Source: Sharpea azabuensis DSM 18934 (lineage in GTDB: Bacteria; Bacillota_I; Bacilli_A; Erysipelotrichales; Coprobacillaceae). From it: 36,759 nucleotides of DNA. The DNA lies in assembly GCF_000702165.1 (NCBI RefSeq), contig NZ_JNKU01000030.1:1-36759 (forward strand), read 5' to 3'. The translations under genes and the position numbers were made by a program. The first letter of the stretch is position 1. Each line of letters begins with the position of its first letter. The notes below the pieces were generated by a model. It did not search any database. It was not told the origin of the DNA and saw only the letters and a program-made list of their open reading frames with translations. Shown one piece after another: positions 340 through 30,413 of the stretch.

Positions 340-738
340 TATTGCCATTATTACCGTACAGTCTGTTTCGTATCCCCGGTATTCCCTGGTATCACGGATT
401 TTGAAGCAATCTTTGAGCGGGTAAAAGATCAGTGTGATCTGTTCTGGCTCGAAAACCTCAATCTTCGGGGCGGCTTCAAGAAGACGATTATGGATTATAT
501 TGCCAGAAAATATCCTGACCTTGTACCGCTTTACGATGAGATCTATAACAAGCATAAACGCAGCTACTTTGAAGCACTTGAAGTAAAAGCTGAGAAAATG
601 GCTAAGAAGTATGATTGTGCCTTTGTAGATAATGAAATGCCTTATGGCAGAGTCCCACAGGGGCATCCGGTGATCGTAGATTATTTCTATCATGAAGAAA
701 TCCGTGGGACAGAGAATACCGGAAAAAGAAATCGGTAA
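340..738 (+). pseudogene. Radical-SAM (spore photoproduct lyase-like) protein, C-terminal remnant
   Basis: An open frame from about 340 reads VSPVFPGITDFEAIF, then FWLENLNLRGGF, and ends with PVIVDYFYHEEIRGTENTGK. These resemble the C-terminal half of SPL-like radical-SAM proteins found on Firmicute mobile DNA. There is no start codon, no CxxxCxxC cluster motif and no N-terminal half: the frame opens right after a stop at 337-339, beside the IS21 end. I read it as a gene cut by the IS21 insertion or by an associated deletion. An ATG at 490 could give an 82-residue product, but it would have no cofactor site. The assignment rests on motif recall only. Confidence 0.55.
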
Positions 739-900
739 CTTCCTGTTCAATGTGTTTTGCAATGTCGCTGATATATTGAAGGTAATGGAGCAACATCATA
801 TTTTCAATCAATTTCCGAATAGCATGTTCCAACCTTGACCAATTCCCAGACAGCATGAACCAGTATGATTATTTTTTCTACTCTCTCGGGGCATGTTGAG
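738..900 (+). repeat. R1 repeat, copy a
   Basis: This non-coding stretch follows the stop of the radical-SAM remnant directly. It matches 5324-5460 (copy b), with shared blocks such as GTGTTTTGCAATGT, GGAGCAACATCATATTTTC and CTCTCGGGGCATG. Copy a holds about 29 extra bases (roughly 791-822) bounded by CAAT on both sides. Both copies begin within a few bases of a cargo stop codon and end in a GGGGCATGTnGAGAC border; here that border joins R2. Confidence 0.75.
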
Positions 901-1107
901 ACAGTGGCTCTGCTAACAAGAACAAATTGACAAAGGGCTGGAAAAGCCCGTGTTTAAGCCATTTCTGCGGCATCCTTCTTTCTGAGAAGAGAGGCTTGTG
1001 TCGCTTTTTCTGTCCGGGAAAATGAGGATATTGCTCTGGCGTGACTGTGGCTTTGCTATTTTCAGGGGTTGTGACTGTGGAAAGGCTATTTGAGCAGGAA
1101 TAGAAAA

Positions 1108-1140
1108 GAGGCGGTGCAGAATCATCATCTGCACCGCCTC
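1108..1140. other. Perfect 13-bp stem-loop in R2a
   Basis: GAGGCGGTGCAGA, a 7-base loop ATCATCA, and TCTGCACCGCCTC form a perfect stem. A T-run starts about ten bases downstream, so it may act as a weak terminator or processing site that shields the promoter behind it. The matching position in R2b (4664-4696) has two mismatched pairs. Confidence 0.8.
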
Positions 1141-1186
1141 CCATTGCTTTTTTTGCCGTCTCGTACCATCGGGCCGGCTTTTCTGT

Positions 1187-1214
1187 TTTACACGAATTCC
1201 AAACATGATATACT
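1187..1214 (+). promoter_or_regulatory. Sigma-A-type promoter in R2a
   Basis: TTTACA (1187-1192), a 16-bp spacer and TATACT (1209-1214), pointing into the cargo at 1351. Both hexamers and the spacer are conserved in R2b (4743-4770), which faces an unrelated gene. Confidence 0.7.
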
Positions 1215-1350
1215 AAGTAACGAAATTGAGCTAATGAGAAATGGATGTCATTGCTACTGATTTCAAAGCCACTTGGAAGAAGACAAGATATGTATTCCAA
1301 GATATAAAACAGAGTTTAATGTTCAAAGAATAGTGGAGGAGGCAAATAGG

Positions 1351-1788
1351 TTGATTCATAAAAGGAAATCTGTGTTACGAGTTATTTTGGGCATCATGGC
1401 TGCTATTGCATTCGTATTTGCTTGCCTTCTTGGAGACCTTATCTATGCCACACGATTTAAAATTAATCCAGTTGATAAATCAACATCACCAGATGGAACC
1501 TATGAGCTTTCATTCCAGCAGGTTGGTGATCCGGACTGGCCTTTTGGATATACACATGCAAGACTTATTTTGATGAATGGAAAACGCGTAATAATTAAGC
1601 AGACATTTGATATTGCAGATGATGGAGCTAAAGCTACTATCAATAGCTGGAATGTAGACTGGAAAGATACTTCTGTGGAAGTCATTATTTCTGGAACTGA
1701 ACAAGAAGATGTACTTTATGTTTTAAAATTTGATGGATCAGTCGATAGGAAACAACTTGATACACGATATGGGCATATCAAAGAGTAG
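1351..1788 (+). CDS. Hypothetical single-pass membrane protein
   Basis: Unrecognised protein. I place the start at the TTG at 1351 because GGAGGAGG (1335-1342) sits about eight bases upstream. The frame is open back to 1273, but that part is R2 sequence. With this start the protein has 145 residues: a basic N terminus (HKRKS), one hydrophobic segment at about residues 9-31, then an extracytoplasmic domain with SPDGTYELSFQQVGDPDWPF and a TRYGHIKE end. The layout suggests an anchored surface domain. It is the first gene behind the R2a promoter and is followed 11 bp later by a broken zinc-ribbon frame. The function is unknown. Confidence 0.7.
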   Translation: MIHKRKSVLRVILGIMAAIAFVFACLLGDLIYATRFKINPVDKSTSPDGTYELSFQQVGDPDWPFGYTHARLILMNGKRVIIKQTFDIADDGAKATINSWNVDWKDTSVEVIISGTEQEDVLYVLKFDGSVDRKQLDTRYGHIKE

Positions 1789-1799
1789 CGGATTAGAAA

Positions 1800-1991
1800 A
1801 TGAATAGAAAAGAGTTGCAAATTTTTGAATTTGACGGGGGAGAGAAGTAAGTAGATAAAGTAAAGAATGAAGAATATGTTCTTTGCTCACGCTGCAAACA
1901 AGAGGTTTACAAAGAAGCAATCGTATGCCCTTTTTGTAAATTTGGTCTTATGGTATGGCTTGAAGGAGAAATTGATGAATCGTGGTGTTAG
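1800..1991 (+). pseudogene. Small zinc-ribbon protein interrupted by a stop codon
   Basis: A frame opens with ATG at 1800 (MNRKELQIFEFDGGEK), meets an in-frame TAA at 1848-1850, and continues without a new start codon through VLCSRCKQEVYKEAIVCPFC, ending at TAG 1989-1991. The second part has two CxxC knuckles eleven residues apart, a classic zinc ribbon. That makes this frame the genuine one here, rather than the overlapping +1 frame that starts at 1867. The stop lies between the start and the knuckles, so the protein is probably lost unless the stop is read through. It overlaps the next gene by 17 bp, which suggests former translational coupling. Confidence 0.6.
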
Positions 1992-2400
1992 GAGAGCATC
2001 AAAGGAAGAGGTTAGAACTGTTGAGTATACTTTCGGTGTTTACAAATCTTTGATTGTTGCCGTGTATAAGCCGTCAGAGTGGTTTGTATGCAAAGAGACA
2101 AAGGCCAGACTCCCAAGACAGGATATTGTTCTTAAGCCGAAACCTGAAAATAGATTATTCTTTGTGGATGAAAGATATGAGCAGGGATTTCTGTTGGATG
2201 ATAATGAATCGTTCTACATTGGAAAGTCGATAGCCAGATTGAAGTTGAATCAGTCGGCACAGAATTCGATTACATATCCTATCCACTGGCGAAAGATACA
2301 ATTCATATTTAATGAAATTGACAAATCGGAATTTGGCGATTGGATAAATTTAGTTTTTGTTGTAAAAACCTTTATTTTAGGGCGTTGCTACGGAAAGTAG
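1975..2400 (+). CDS. Hypothetical protein, 141 residues
   Basis: I set the start at ATG 1975 because GAAGGAG (1962-1968) sits six bases upstream and because the upstream extension of this frame overlaps the zinc-ribbon reading frame. The protein is soluble, mixed and basic, with FGVYKSLIVAVYKPSEWFVC near the start and RLFFVDERYEQGFLLDDNES in the middle. I recognise no domain. It may be the C-terminal portion of a zinc-ribbon protein split by a frameshift, or a separate coupled gene. It is followed by a 100-bp gap and the XRE regulator. Confidence 0.5.
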   Translation: MNRGVRRASKEEVRTVEYTFGVYKSLIVAVYKPSEWFVCKETKARLPRQDIVLKPKPENRLFFVDERYEQGFLLDDNESFYIGKSIARLKLNQSAQNSITYPIHWRKIQFIFNEIDKSEFGDWINLVFVVKTFILGRCYGK

Positions 2401-2500
2401 CAGAAAAATAGTGAAATGACAACTAATGTTTCTTGTTTGGTAAAGGTTAATTTACTAATCTGTGAAGGAAGTAAAACAAACCGAAAACGGAGGTAGAAAA

Positions 2501-3424
2501 ATGACTTTAGAAGAACAAATTAAACATTACAGAAAACAGGCTGGACTTTCACAGGAGAAGATGGCTGAGAAAATCGGTGTATCAAGACAAGCTATTACAA
2601 AGTGGGAAAATGGAACAGGAACACCGGATATTGCAAATCTGATGGCAATAGCAGATCTCTTCCAGATATCAGTAGATGAATTACTTTCGAATGAGAAATC
2701 AGAGAAAAAGCAGTCTGATTACATCTATGAAAGTCGTACTGAATACGATATTGATGGTAAGAAAAATTTTGATATCAAGCTTGGTGGAGCATATGCTGTA
2801 TATTTAAAGGCATATCATGGAGAAAAAATTAAAGTCGCAATGTTTTCAAATGTCTATAAGAATCTTCTGGCAGATTATAAAGTAAAGATTGATGATATAA
2901 AAAACCGAATCGATATTGATCTTAATAGATTTAATGAAGCCAGTGAAGCAGATGCTAAGGAGAGTTTGGTCATTACTATTTCTATTCCAGTAAAATATAT
3001 TGGAAAAATCGAATTATCAGTTAATGCAGGGACACTGAATATTACTGATATAGAAAATGAACATATTGAGGTAAATGGCAAAATTAGCGAAGTTACCCTT
3101 CAGGGAAATAAAAGTGAAATTGAGATAGATTCAAATCTTGATATGCAGATCAGTGTTTTATCACATGAGGGTGCGCTTGAGATTAATCAGTTGTCAGCAA
3201 CATCAAGACTTACAATTCCTGCAAATTATAGATTTAGAAACGCAAAAAAGGGAATAGCAACTCATATTTATTATGAGAGACAGGGCAAAAAGGTTGATGA
3301 CTTTTCAGATGCCGAAGCAGACAATTACATTGAGTTCAATGGTATAAAGAGTGAGCTTGTGATTGTAGAGGCTGAGGCGCAGTCATGGAAAAGTATATAT
3401 ATCGACCGGTCAGATTCTATTTGA
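2501..3424 (+). CDS. XRE-family regulator with a C-terminal DUF4097-like beta domain
   Basis: The start at ATG 2501 follows CGGAGG at a good distance; the upstream extension in the same frame is not needed. Residues about 5-62 form a lambda-repressor-type HTH (QAGLSQEKMAEKIGVSRQAI, then WENGTGTPDIANLMAIADLF). After a linker comes a long region rich in repeated short beta strands (NAGTLNITDIENEHIEVNGK, VTLQGNKSEIEI), which resembles the DUF4097/adhesin-like beta-solenoid. A DNA-binding head on such a sensor-like body suggests a transcription factor with a ligand- or partner-binding tail. The gene overlaps the next one, a CPBP protease, by 40 bp, so the two are co-translated. Confidence 0.85.
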   Translation: MTLEEQIKHYRKQAGLSQEKMAEKIGVSRQAITKWENGTGTPDIANLMAIADLFQISVDELLSNEKSEKKQSDYIYESRTEYDIDGKKNFDIKLGGAYAVYLKAYHGEKIKVAMFSNVYKNLLADYKVKIDDIKNRIDIDLNRFNEASEADAKESLVITISIPVKYIGKIELSVNAGTLNITDIENEHIEVNGKISEVTLQGNKSEIEIDSNLDMQISVLSHEGALEINQLSATSRLTIPANYRFRNAKKGIATHIYYERQGKKVDDFSDAEADNYIEFNGIKSELVIVEAEAQSWKSIYIDRSDSI

Positions 3425-4218
3425 TTACATTTGCCTGCACTTGGTTCTGGTGGCTATTTGCAATTTTACTTAATGAAGGGGCGGGGCTTTATCTTGGAAT
3501 GTTTCTTGGCTTGCTTTCACCTGCCGTGGTTGCCGTAGTAACTGTATTTACGTCTAAGAATAAAGCACTCATTAATGACTTTAAGAAGAAGCTGATTGGG
3601 TTTTATAGAATAAAACCTAAATCTATATTAATTGCAGTGCTGATATTTGCTGTGATGGTGACGGCTTCCATCGGTACATCAGTATTATTTGGCGGCAGTA
3701 TAAATCAGTTTTCATTTACAGAAGACTTTTCATTTTCTATAGGTGGTACGTCTGCATTTCTTACAATTTTGTTGGCATCCTGCATAGAGGAGTTAGGTTG
3801 GAGAGGTTATGGAGAGGATGCTGTTGGTGCATACAACAGCTGGTTTAAGGAGTCTATCATCTTTGGATGTATCTGGTCTTTGTGGCATGTGCCATTATTC
3901 TGGATACCTGGAACGTACCAGTATGGACTTAAAGAGATGGGAATCATGTATGTGATTAACTTTCTTCTTAGCGTGATACCACTTGATTTCCTTCAGACAT
4001 GGGTATATGTAAAGAATAACAGAAGTATGCTTGCAACAATTATTTTTCATTTGTTTATAAATATTATGCAGGAAAAGATAAACATGACTCCTGAAACAAA
4101 ATGTATACAAACTATTTTTGTTGTTATTGCAGCAATTATAATTGTTGTTATAAATAAAGAAATGTTCTTTGAAACAAAGCATGTGGGTAATTTACTTGAA
4201 GAGAAAATTATGAATTGA
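3385..4218 (+). CDS. CPBP-family intramembrane protease
   Basis: 277 residues with about seven or eight membrane segments. The three CPBP (Rce1-like, PF02517) motifs are present in order: EELGWRGYG near residues 136-144, then SLWHVPLFW near 166-174, and HLFINIMQE near 222-230. The EE and the two His residues are the expected metal or catalytic positions. Family members cleave membrane or prenylated proteins and often give immunity to bacteriocins. The gene starts inside the XRE gene, so regulator and protease form a tight pair. Its substrate is unknown. The R3a repeat begins 44 bp after its stop. Confidence 0.9.
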   Translation: MEKYIYRPVRFYLITFACTWFWWLFAILLNEGAGLYLGMFLGLLSPAVVAVVTVFTSKNKALINDFKKKLIGFYRIKPKSILIAVLIFAVMVTASIGTSVLFGGSINQFSFTEDFSFSIGGTSAFLTILLASCIEELGWRGYGEDAVGAYNSWFKESIIFGCIWSLWHVPLFWIPGTYQYGLKEMGIMYVINFLLSVIPLDFLQTWVYVKNNRSMLATIIFHLFINIMQEKINMTPETKCIQTIFVVIAAIIIVVINKEMFFETKHVGNLLEEKIMN

Positions 4219-4262
4219 GAGATAAATAGAAATTTATCAATGTAAAGAAATCGACAATTTCG

Positions 4263-4454
4263 AGTTTGTAGGGATGACATTAAAAATGAAGTTTAAGGAA
4301 CAGATCTTTATCCTGTTTGCCTATACAAATTATAGAACAATTAAAGGTTCTCACAGGCTCGAACTACTAGATTTTAAGGGAAAAGGTGCGTTCCACCATT
4401 CCCTTGTGCAATAGGGTTTGAGTATGTTTTTCGTTGAACAACCAAGCCACGTGG
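4263..4454 (+). repeat. R3 repeat, copy a
   Basis: About 192 bp, clearly similar to 6093-6284 (shared AGTTTGTAG, GATGACAT, TCTCACAGGC, ACTAGATTTTAA, GAGTATGTTTTTCG). It starts shortly after a cargo stop codon and runs directly into R2b. It contains an imperfect hairpin with a GGGAA...TTCCC outer stem around the loop CGTTC; the same fold is drawable in copy b with changed inner pairs. Confidence 0.8.
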
Positions 4455-4709
4455 AAACAGTGGCTCTGCTAACAAGAACAAATTGGAAGAGGGCTGGAAA
4501 AGCCCGTGTTTAAGCCATTTCTGCGGCATCTTTCTTTCTGAGAAGATAGGCTGGTGCCGCGTTTTCTTTTAGAAAAAATATGAAAGTTGGTCTGGCGTGA
4601 CTGTGGCTTTGCTATTTTCAGGGATTGTGACTGTGGAAAGGCTATTTGAACAGGAATAGAAAAGAGGCGATGCAGAATCATCATCTGCACCACCTCCCAT
4701 CGCTTCTTT

Positions 4710-4745
4710 GCCGTCTCGGGACTATCGGGACGGCTTTTCTGTTTT
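4710..4745 (+). terminator. Terminator-like hairpin in R2b
   Basis: GCCGTC (4710-4715) pairs with GACGGC (4729-4734), followed by CTTTTCTGTTTT. It lies immediately upstream of the promoter, so it could stop read-through from the previous cargo. The counterpart in R2a (1155-1178) is less perfectly paired. Confidence 0.5.
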
Positions 4746-4770
4746 ACACGAATTCCAAACATGATATACT
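4743..4770 (+). promoter_or_regulatory. Sigma-A-type promoter in R2b
   Basis: TTTACA (4743-4748), a 16-bp spacer and TATACT (4765-4770), the same as in R2a. It directs transcription into the deaminase-like gene at 4888. Confidence 0.7.
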
Positions 4771-4887
4771 AAGTAACGAAATTGTGCTAATGAGAAATGG
4801 ATATCATTGCTACTGATTTCAAAGCCGCTTGGAAGAAGGCAAGTAGGTATTCCAAGATATAAATCGGAATTTGTGGAGGAAAATCAA

Positions 4888-5322
4888 ATGGATATTTGGG
4901 AAAGAATGTATGAAAAGGCGAAAGATCAATATCATCCAGAGGAAGTATCTCCCTTTATATATGCACACAATGTAGTTTGTGCAATAGAAGCTGAAAACGG
5001 AGATATCTATACGGGATTCTGCATTGAAAGCTGCTGCGGAGTGATGAATATTTGTGCCGATAGACTTGCCGCACTGAATATGTATGCTAACAGTGGTCAG
5101 ACTAGAATAAAAAGATTTATAGCGTTCCGCGACAGTGCGCCAAACGGAGGTGGGAGTGGTATGCCATGTGGTGCTTGTCAGGAATTCTTTTATCAATTAA
5201 ATGAAGCGAACGAAGATATGGAAATCATGGTCGATTATGGAAAAAGAGAAACCATAACATTAAAAGAACTTATGCCGAATTGGTGGGGAAAGGAACGTTA
5301 CGCTGAGGCAAGGAGTAATTGA
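4888..5322 (+). CDS. Cytidine deaminase-like zinc protein
   Basis: 144 residues from ATG 4888, preceded by GTGGAGGA. Residues C56, C94 and C97 fit the zinc ligands of the cytidine deaminase fold (NICADRLAALN and MPCGACQEF). The family normally has C/H-A-E in the first motif, with Glu as the proton shuttle; here codon 58 is GAT (Asp). Activity is therefore uncertain: the enzyme could use Asp, act on an unusual substrate, or be inactive. The length fits small stand-alone nucleoside or blasticidin-type deaminases. It is a single-gene cargo between R2b and R1b. Confidence 0.8.
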   Translation: MDIWERMYEKAKDQYHPEEVSPFIYAHNVVCAIEAENGDIYTGFCIESCCGVMNICADRLAALNMYANSGQTRIKRFIAFRDSAPNGGGSGMPCGACQEFFYQLNEANEDMEIMVDYGKRETITLKELMPNWWGKERYAEARSN

Positions 5323-5323
5323 C

Positions 5324-5460
5324 AACTTCCAGCTCAGTGTGTTTTGCAATGTTGCTGATATAATTGAGGGTGATGGAGCAACATCATATTTTCGATCAAT
5401 TCCCAGACTGCAAGAATCTACGTGATTATGTTCCTCACTGTCTCGGGGCATGTGGAGACG
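5324..5460 (+). repeat. R1 repeat, copy b
   Basis: Starts two bases after the deaminase stop codon and matches R1a, lacking its 29-base internal block. It ends in CTCGGGGCATGTGGAGAC, the same kind of border that joins R1a to R2a, but no full R2 follows here. Confidence 0.75.
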
Positions 5461-5697
5461 GTCTGTTTGATGTCAAGAAAAGATAAATAAGCGCCAGATA
5501 GTAATATATTTCCGGGCTTTTTCGAAGGCTTGGATTTGAAGCTAGACTTCTGAAAAGCTCTGTTTTCTTGTATGGGGAAACATATCCACTGCAAAATGTG
5601 TGTCAGGCTGTAACATCGGATTAGTTGTCACGATTTGAGACAGTGGATTAGACGTTAAGAGAGGTTATACAAATTGGAATTTATGGAGGAATAAATA
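5461..5697. other. Intergenic stretch before the NTF2-like gene
   Basis: No convincing gene. Near 5636-5680 it holds GAGACAGTGG and then ACAAATTGGA, which echo the left border of R2 (GACAGTGG... ACAAATTGGA). This could be a decayed or alternative border. ATGGAGGAATAA at the end supplies the ribosome site for the next gene. Confidence 0.4.
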
Positions 5698-6084
5698 ATG
5701 AATGAAGAAATAAAAGCTTTGATTGATGCTGCTGATAAAGCTATTAAAGAAGAACGTTTTGATGACTTGATAGAATTCTATACAGATGATGCTGTATTAG
5801 TAGTTCGTCCTGGATTAGAAGTAAAAGGCAAAGATGCAATTAAGGGCGCATTTATCAAAATTGCTGCATATTTTAAAAATAGCATCGAACCGACACAAGG
5901 CAAAATGTTAATGATTGAAGCAGGTGACACTGTTCTTGTTCTTTCTCAAACTTTGTTAGATGCAGATAACAAGGAATCATCCGCGTATAGTATGGATAGA
6001 AGAGCGACTTATGTTTATAGAAATATCGATGGAAAATGGCTATGTGCAATCGATAACTCTTATGGAACAACGTTATTAGACTAA
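5698..6084 (+). CDS. SnoaL/NTF2-like domain protein
   Basis: 128 residues with a strong GGAGG site upstream. The sequence has the alpha+beta NTF2 cone pattern: an N-terminal helix ([20 protein letters not shown]), [13 protein letters not shown], a [10 protein letters not shown] helix, and late strands [20 protein letters not shown]. It matches the SnoaL/DUF4440 ketosteroid isomerase-like group. Members range from isomerases to binding proteins, so the reaction cannot be stated. It is a single-gene cargo followed eight bases later by R3b. Confidence 0.8.
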
Positions 6085-6092
6085 TAAATACC

Positions 6093-6284
6093 AGTTTGTA
6101 GTGATGACATGAAAAAAGAAGTTTAAGGGACAGATTTTTACTCTGTTTGCCTCGACAAATTATAGGATAATTCAAGGCTCTCACAGGCCGAACCACTAGA
6201 TTTTAAAGGGAAATATGCGTTCCATCATTCCCTTGTACAATAGGGGGTGAGTATGTTTTTCGCTAAACAACTGAGCCATGTTGA
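6093..6284 (+). repeat. R3 repeat, copy b
   Basis: About 192 bp, similar to R3a (4263-4454), ending in GAGCCATGTTGAG. It is not followed by a full R2 copy. It closes the repeat-bordered region; after it the sequence changes character. Confidence 0.8.
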
Positions 6285-6556
6285 GCCAATAGTTCTTTTG
6301 TCTCGACGATAAACAGATGACTATATGGAAAATGAAATAAACTTAATAAACTTAATGCTGCAAGTGCACAAAGTAAACGGACTTATGGGGATGTTAAAAA
6401 GAATGTCCCTAAGCACAATTGCGAAATAAAAGTAACTCAAATTCAAATCATCCAAGCAAAGAAAGGTTGAATTGATTTAGTTAGTCAGAACTTTAATCTA
6501 TCTAAAGAGTCACAAGTTTTTTTCATGATTTAAAAGGTTAAATAATAAATCTAAAT
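6285..6556. other. Intergenic stretch, no clear gene
   Basis: AT-rich, no recognised gene. A 34-codon frame at 6325-6429 (starting MENEINLINLMLQVHK) has no ribosome site and is not supported further. Confidence 0.4.
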
Positions 6557-14789: not shown

Positions 14790-15072
14790 ACATTTATTTA
14801 ATGCTAAGTAGGTCATGTCATTTATCTTTGTTTTAGAAGTTTGTTATGGTCAGATGCTTAAGAGAAAACAAGCACTTGACGCATTTCTCATGGCGATTTT
14901 ACCAGCAAAAGTGTCGCCAACACATAAAGATCTTCCAATATGCATAAAATAGCGAAGAGGAAGATGTCAAAGAACATTGTTTATCATTCATCGTAGCGAT
15001 GAGAAATGATGGCTTTGAAACAAAGAAACTGTATGCGCAAGGGAATGCTGAAGCATGATTTCAATTTATCAG
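14790..15072. other. Intergenic stretch, no supported gene
   Basis: AT-rich with short broken frames only; nothing recognisable before the 102-bp repeat. Confidence 0.4.
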
Positions 15073-15174
15073 AACAGGATTTATTGTTGTAATAGGCAAT
15101 GAATTGTTTCGTATTTCCGTTTATAACATTAATCTTGCTTATGGCTTAAGGTGCAATTCTATCTTAAGCCTTTT
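15073..15174 (+). repeat. 102-bp direct repeat, copy 1, with terminal hairpin
   Basis: Nearly identical to 18809-18910, with only a few substitutions. It ends in GGCTTAAG (15143-15150), a 12-base loop, CTTAAGCC (15163-15170) and TTTT, a terminator-like hairpin. The two copies bracket the MerR, SIMPL and metallo-beta-lactamase genes. Confidence 0.9.
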
Positions 15175-18752: not shown

Positions 18753-18808
18753 AGTCTACAGCTCAATAGCTAAAATCTACTTTGGAAGTATTTTTCAGTA
18801 AGTGCCAA

Positions 18809-18910
18809 AACAGGATTTATTGTTGTAATAGGCAATGGATTGTTTCGTATTTCCGTTTATAACATTAATCTTGTTTATGGTTTAAGGTGCAATTCTATCT
18901 TAAGCCTTTT
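18809..18910 (+). repeat. 102-bp direct repeat, copy 2, with terminator hairpin
   Basis: Matches 15073-15174 with a few substitutions. The end hairpin GGTTTAAG (18879-18886) / CTTAAGCC (18899-18906) is followed by six T, so this copy looks like a working terminator. The rest of the gap 18688-19085 is AT-rich without a gene. Confidence 0.9.
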
Positions 18911-30130: not shown

Positions 30131-30136
30131 GAAGTT

Positions 30137-30213
30137 GTCGACGTAGCTCAGCTGGATAGAGCACACGCCTTCTAAGCGTGCGGTCGCGGGTTCGAATCCC
30201 TCCGTCGACGCCA
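30137..30213 (+). tRNA. tRNA-Arg (anticodon TCT), copy 1
   Basis: A complete cloverleaf with encoded CCA: acceptor GTCGACG/CGTCGAC, anticodon stem CACGC/GCGTG around CTTCTAA, and the T arm GGTTCGAATCC. It reads AGA codons, a main Arg codon in AT-rich genomes. A promoter with a dyad lies directly upstream. Confidence 0.98.
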
Positions 30214-30221
30214 TCTTTTAT

Positions 30222-30245
30222 AGATATCATTGGATATCTTTTTTT
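30222..30245 (+). terminator. Terminator between the two tRNA-Arg genes
   Basis: AGATATC (30222-30228), loop ATTG, GATATCT (30233-30239), then a T-run. Confidence 0.85.
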
Positions 30246-30323
30246 ATGAATTTTTCAAAGAAAAACATATTTCTTCTTGCATTCTTAGCATTATTTATGT
30301 ATTATGGAATAGCACTAAGAAAT

Positions 30324-30400
30324 GTCGACGTAGCTCAGCTGGATAGAGCACACGCCTTCTAAGCGTGCGGTCGCGGGTTCGAATCCCTCCGTCGACGCCA
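30324..30400 (+). tRNA. tRNA-Arg (anticodon TCT), copy 2
   Basis: Identical in sequence to copy 1 over all 77 bases, including CCA. The 110 bp in between differs from the upstream flank of copy 1 and shows no equally good promoter, so copy 2 may depend on read-through or on a weak start near 30295-30310. Confidence 0.98.
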
Positions 30401-30413
30401 TCTTAAAAAGAAG

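Follow-up and report, generated by a model that had tools for sequence, protein, structure and literature searches.

A probable tandem array of small rumA-targeted gene cassettes in Sharpea azabuensis

The left part of a 36,759-nucleotide stretch of the Sharpea azabuensis DSM 18934 genome (contig NZ_JNKU01000030.1; the whole stretch is called the window below) holds unrelated cargo genes bordered by three non-coding repeat families, R1, R2 and R3. We consider it highly probable that these genes belong to four to five small integrative cassettes in tandem, non-autonomous and of the kind targeted to rumA by large serine recombinases (LSRs). Each cassette would open at a crossover join within the HVETV codons of rumA, with a replacement rumA 3′ end, and would continue with terminators and a promoter (in R2 or in the shorter left ends X3 and X4), the cargo and a right arm (R1 or R3) that leads into the next join. 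R2 itself would have been born by a deletion that brought a rumA prophage's left end next to the sequence directly 3′ of its LSR gene, retaining both prophage ends as well as the cargo carried beside the recombinase. A complete phage or integrative and conjugative element (ICE) would supply the LSR that acts in trans on the attachment (att) joins, with new units entering at a join and older ones being shifted downstream.

Repeats and rumA-type joins

The repeats had been reported in a preliminary description made from the sequence alone, and alignment bears them out. The R2 copies (892-1317 and 4448-4872) are 90.2 % identical across 427 bp (E 6e-165) and the R3 copies (4263-4455 and 6093-6284) 85 % across 193 bp (E 2e-57), while R1 aligns in two blocks, one of 81 bp (737-816 and 5324-5404, 89 %) and one of 66 bp (840-905 and 5397-5462, 77 %). 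These similarities are far beyond chance. In the 2.4-Mb draft assembly each family has two copies, all inside the window, which by itself would fit two or three non-coding repeats having simply been duplicated locally. The preliminary description had proposed a search for the same borders around different cargo, and had held that repeats occurring only here, or always with the same cargo, would indicate such a duplication. This explanation is already contradicted and practically untenable, since at least seven other genomes, as well as viral contigs, have the arms around other cargo and in shuffled order.

An exact scan of a GTDB-based genome collection with 32 bases of the R2 start returned nine stretches, from Lactimicrobium massiliense, Eubacterium pyruvativorans, Porcincola intestinalis, Bifidobacterium thermophilum, a Eubacteriaceae metagenome-assembled genome (MAG) and two Lachnospiraceae MAGs. 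R1 was present in 2 of 392 genomes of the order of Porcincola and full-length R2 in none of the 42 other genomes of the window's family, which suggests that both arms are rare. A second pattern, taken from the 3′ half of R2, gave no match, and neither did an R3 pattern in viral contigs; searches of plasmid and phage DNA with the whole stretch returned cargo homologues and one R3 match and nothing else, and an Rfam scan of the region yielded no RNA family, only sub-threshold chance matches.

A common join at the borders, also part of the preliminary description, is present at 892, 4448 and 5449 and, in degenerate form, near 5634 and at 6277. It reads (C)AYGTnGARACnGT and encodes, in frame, HVETV plus a short tail and a stop, HVETV being the conserved 3′ end of rumA/rlmD (23S rRNA uracil methyltransferase). 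In B. thermophilum, R2 is fused in frame to rumA, and the resulting frame of 451 amino acids (aa), ending in HVETVALLTRTN and a stop, is RumA/RlmD (Pfam PF05958); in E. pyruvativorans, the Eubacteriaceae MAG and Lactimicrobium, the arrays likewise have rumA upstream of them. Two LSR genes end at the join in VETV-type codons, closing with ENGVETVALLTRTN (L013) and DNTVETVVLLTRIK (Porcincola) before the stop, and match the join because of reciprocal exchange with rumA. An initial idea, that the join marked the ends of LSR genes as the target, was dropped once the B. thermophilum rumA (L021) was read. Integration of streptococcal ICEs is known to exchange the 3′ ends of rumA and the integrase gene (PMC4701971), and rumA 3′ ends are insertion hotspots in Dehalobacter (PMC11578063) and for Streptococcus suis prophages (PMC7168690).

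Comparison of the 15-bp blocks that flank the join in 13 joint pairs, most of them with one arm in common, revealed that identity switches at the 9-bp join. Between an R1/R2 and a rumA/R2 joint, for example, the left 15 bp are 26 % identical, the join 100 % and the right 30 bp 100 %. Left arms (R1, R3, rumA, LSR gene, prophage ends) occur with right arms (R2, X3, X, others) in many combinations. Judged from these letters, the switch together with the reassortment of arms is the signature of site-specific recombination. Alternatively, cargo could have been swapped by homologous recombination within the shared arms, the serine recombinase accounting for an ancient insertion only. The arms are long and 80-95 % identical, which suffices for such exchange, and R2 and R1 bound the cargo tightly; the reassorted left and right arms, however, switch at a 9-bp join that is too short for homologous recombination, so that their reassortment there is not due to homologous exchange, and we find this alternative rather unlikely.

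At R1/R2 joints (e.g., L018 near 1145), a perfect dyad of 10 bp, CACTGTCTCG-GGGCACGT-CGAGACAGTG, is made up of the R1 end and the R2 start; its centre is the CA of the His codon, and it may be part of an attP. In the Lactimicrobium array (L083-L085, oriented 44043-44633), a relaxase-like frame leads directly into a rumA-type join ending in MGEAITHVETVSLLTRTN and a stop, and from its sequence looks as if the site had been used within a mobilization gene. Both rumA genes of S. azabuensis are followed by defence-like cargo, the one on contig C58 (L079) by a septin/AIG1-type GTPase and a PLD protein and the one on C47 (L080) by an AAA_15 ATPase resembling AriA/PtuA. In the congener G031, the genes behind both rumA genes differ from these.

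The recombinase remnant and related prophages

R2 begins with the replacement rumA end, followed by terminator-like hairpins and a promoter-like TTTACA-16-TATACT with a TG extension, the extended -10 element TGATATACT being unchanged in all nine R2 copies compared (eight sources). In the second R2 copy of the window, the TGA stop of the replacement rumA end has become TGG (4484-4486), by which the tail would gain nine residues. Three longer R2 copies (E. pyruvativorans, Lactimicrobium, Lachnospiraceae MAG) contain an open reading frame (ORF) of about 125 codons between the R2 halves. This ORF encodes the C-terminal part of an LSR and has 85-98 % identity to the complete LSR523 (523 aa; Pfam domains Resolvase, Recombinase and zinc-ribbon) of a viral contig, in which the R2 3′ half starts immediately behind the LSR523 gene. 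The mechanism, which the preliminary description called unknown, is not wholly so: the join is the rumA 3′ end, a documented LSR target (PMC4701971, PMC11578063), and an LSR of the cognate type exists as a remnant in longer R2 copies and complete in the viral contig and in prophages of relatives.

The LSR of the S. suis phages that take their name from integration in rum has 53 % identity to LSR523, and the record of one of these phages, phi-SsuFJNP3_rum, has the order rumA, recombinase genes, hydrolase, streptogramin acetyltransferase, phage. A whole prophage with both of its borders occurs in G029, a member of the window's family: a rumA/X arm is followed by phage genes, an LSR trio, an arsenic operon with other cargo, the R3 arm and the join, and after the join, on the distal side, stands the displaced rumA end HIESIVRLSYQKH with its stop. 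From this plan and the LSR tail in the long R2 copies, the cassettes look like prophages from which the whole stretch separating the left end from the LSR tail has been deleted. A deletion origin is accordingly proposed for every unit, and the recombinase would be supplied in trans. Between the joins at 892, 4448, 5449 and 6277 there are no recombination or transfer genes, nor is there an LSR among the cargo proteins of the window, while the att-type joins are retained. The two LSRs encoded elsewhere in the genome (C9, C21) are distant, with about 25-32 % identity to LSR523/LSR562, and no link between them and the joins was found.

In viral contig L120 (6364-8372), a small Recombinase-domain protein without a resolvase domain precedes the complete LSR, and a partner of similar size (140-143 aa) has the same position in the G029 prophage and in an S. 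suis rum phage.

The units might also have arisen by decay in place, complete prophages or ICEs having entered rumA in succession and each having shrunk to an immobile stub, as in the known model of cis-mobilizable elements (CIMEs; PMC5704250). The LSR remnants that persist in some copies, the R2 deletion scars that vary from copy to copy and the degenerate prophage that adjoins the cassettes in Porcincola would all fit such decay. It does not account well for the same uninterrupted R2 being shared by three different cargos (window cassettes 1 and 2 and the Porcincola 115-aa cassette), or for near-identical cassettes in unrelated hosts, at other positions and among other neighbours; on balance we hold it to be unlikely.

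Cargo exchange and comparison with known systems

The varied cargo seen in the preliminary description is real, comprising a membrane protein, a hypothetical protein, XRE and CPBP proteins, a cytidine-deaminase-like protein and a SnoaL/NTF2-like protein in the window. Elsewhere, the arms enclose GNAT and ACT-domain genes (B. thermophilum), a GNAT gene with a 115-aa ORF, a radical SAM pair with MarR, and PhzF (E. pyruvativorans), or the PADLOC candidate defence pair PDC-M09 (Lactimicrobium). Four genomes carry the radical SAM cassette at 96-99 % protein identity, among different neighbours, and the 115-aa ORF, 100 % identical, lies to its left in E. pyruvativorans and to its right in Porcincola. 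As predicted, genome G663, found later by R1 alone, has R1 followed by a rumA-type join, with an ars operon as cargo; its second right arm is 97.7 % identical to an arm in Bifidobacterium and stands behind a different gene. The arsenic-resistance operons look alike in this LSR-less cassette (L155 3483-6245) and behind the LSR trio of G029 (49704-53031, oriented).

In five unrelated cargos the stop codon coincides with the R1 start or is separated from it by no more than about 15 bp, and another right arm is equally close behind two other genes. Recombination at the join leaves such ORF-tight boundaries unexplained; they would suit a true integron-like system, in which a dedicated recombinase captures single ORFs at R1 or R2. 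This is a decidedly improbable explanation: no integron integrase was identified, the ars cargo of G663 ends about 200 bp short of R1, and the crossover joins coincide with rumA codons.

Several observations weigh against LSR-type cassettes as an account of the array. Homologous recombination between the long arms could swap cargo too. No LSR codons are left in the window's R2 copies, and neither an excised circle nor a pair of strains with and without one cassette was seen. There is no rumA within the window, as its contig breaks in an IS21 element; the array may sit at rumA1 (C47), rumA2 (C58) or another locus, and synteny with mutS2 did not place the window's own rumA. In addition, the phage NatCom_2329 holds R3, join and X in a row, with its annotated integrase far from that site, so that R3 is not proved to belong to an LSR in that phage.

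Integration at rumA is known for ICEs, integrative and mobilizable elements (IMEs) and prophages with single or multiple LSRs (PMC4701971, PMC5704250, PMC7168690). The array shares with them, phi-SsuFJNP3_rum included, the target gene, the join inside rumA, the exchange of C-terminal codons between rumA and LSR and the cargo after the LSR, whereas the units of the window measure 0.2-3.6 kb, have short standard arms and lack recombinase, conjugation and phage genes. Like CIMEs and other products of tandem accretion, they would be deletion derivatives with att flanks, lined up in tandem at the 3′ end of a gene; unlike CIMEs, which are described as decayed ICEs or IMEs, they combine one constant promoter-bearing left end with various cargo across phyla. 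The staphylococcal cassette chromosome (SCC/SCCmec) and the Enterococcus cassette chromosome at rlmH (PMC6222049) are likewise LSR-type insertions of variable cargo at the 3′ end of a methyltransferase gene, and LSR523 scores against CcrB, below the Ccr family cut-offs; the present target, however, is rumA rather than rlmH, and the units hold one to few genes. With integron cassettes the array has in common small cargo genes, head-to-tail order, shuffling among arrays and an element-supplied promoter, but here each cassette has its own promoter and the joins are protein-coding rumA codons; the integron integrase IntI is absent from the proteins of the window's array.

The preliminary description had suggested an undescribed way of collecting and expressing accessory genes. 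With shared borders, shuffled cargo and promoter-like sequence in the R2 border, such a role is plausible, transcription of the cargo presumably starting in R2. Both rumA/LSR chemistry and the basic process, in which integrative elements and their deletion derivatives accrete site-specifically in tandem, are already known; compact, promoter-bearing and ORF-tight cassette arrays appear to be new, and nothing matching serine-recombinase gene-cassette arrays was found in the open-access literature. The cassettes may still be moving. Extending the proposal tentatively, and with more doubt than confidence, one may envisage a recombinase-less, integron-like cassette pool common to gut bacteria. In it, standard promoter-bearing left ends and right arms would enclose accessory genes with near ORF precision; rumA phages and ICEs would supply the serine recombinases that move them in trans, and they would stack at rumA across Bacillota and Bifidobacterium. 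By this route, phage cargo such as defence-like genes, arsenic resistance, acetyltransferases and radical SAM pairs could turn into compact, promoter-equipped, recombinase-free cassettes and spread among distant gut bacteria. Annotation pipelines that seek integrases would overlook such arrays. As the target (rumA) and the type of recombinase are named, mobility is directly testable.

Layout of the array and other features of the window

The cassette borders of the preliminary description stand, and its layout has to be amended: the first segment is a radical SAM 3′ end cut by IS21, there are two more joins, and 5451-5634 is a cargo-less unit (Table 1). The left contig edge falls within the IS21 element (istB), whose insertion at 353/354 interrupts the radical SAM cargo gene of the first cassette. 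Positions 301-353 match a further copy on contig C21, and homology to cassettes begins at 354: intact cassettes of Lactimicrobium, Porcincola, E. pyruvativorans and a Lachnospiraceae MAG match 354-981 at 88-95 % identity. The region 5421-5689 is 84 % identical to B. thermophilum, and X3 85 % to the sequence 3′ of the genome's own rumA2. The last join, at the distal border, probably represents the original 3′ end of rumA after its displacement.

Table 1. Features of the array, with positions in the window and supporting matches
Feature	Positions	Strand	Support
IS21-type element, 3′ part (istB 2-301); also contig edge	1-353	+	Pfam IstB_IS21 E 1e-34
Radical SAM mobile pair B gene, 3′ end; cargo of truncated first cassette	354-738	+	intact protein matches TIGR04470
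R1, right attachment arm; starts at cargo stop codon	737-891	+	
Join 1 (R1/R2), rumA-type 3′ end HVETVALLTRTN and stop	892-930	+	same peptide ends B. thermophilum rumA (L021)
R2, left end of cassette 1: replacement rumA end, terminators (e.g., 1106-1142), promoter TTTACA-16-TATACT at 1187-1214	898-1317	+	
Cassette 1 cargo, whole	1345-4218	+	
Cassette 1: small membrane protein	1345-1788	+	
Cassette 1: hypothetical protein	1867-2400	+	
Cassette 1: XRE regulator	2501-3424	+	
Cassette 1: CPBP protease	3385-4218	+	
R3, right attachment arm of cassette 1	4256-4447	+	arm also ends rumA prophage of relative G029 distally
Join 2 (R3/R2), HVETVALLTRTN with lost stop (TGG)	4448-4513	+	
R2, left end of cassette 2; promoter 4743-4770, terminators 4662-4698 and 4710-4734	4454-4872	+	
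Cassette 2 cargo, cytidine-deaminase-like protein	4888-5322	+	Pfam PF00383 E 2.5e-4, TIGR01354 E 3e-12, both below cut-off
R1, right arm of cassette 2; starts at cargo stop; internal 32-bp deletion relative to other copies	5322-5448	+	
Join 3 (R1/X3), HVETVCLMSRKDK and stop	5449-5490	+	like ends after rumA2 (own contig C58) and both G031 rumA genes
X3, cargo-less unit: rumA end and flank only	5451-5634	+	also adjoins X4 in B. thermophilum
Join 4, degenerate TTTGAGACAGTGG	5629-5652	+	X3/X4 boundary common to B. thermophilum
X4, short left end with ribosome-binding site	5634-5697	+	
Last cassette cargo, SnoaL/NTF2-like protein	5698-6084	+	Pfam SnoaL_3 E 9e-8; TIGR02246 over cut-off
R3, right arm of last cassette	6086-6276	+	
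Join 5, HVEPIVLLSRR and stop	6277-6312	+	position and form as HIESIVRLSYQKH and stop at G029 prophage distal end

Further along the window, a 105-bp direct repeat (15070-15174 and 18806-18910, 96 % identity) with a terminator-like end encloses 3.6 kb, in which lies a MerR-type regulator gene with 74 % DNA identity to Lactimicrobium cargo placed directly after an R2 join. Finally, two tandem tRNA-like genes form an 89-nt repeat of 97 % identity (30136-30224 and 30323-30411).

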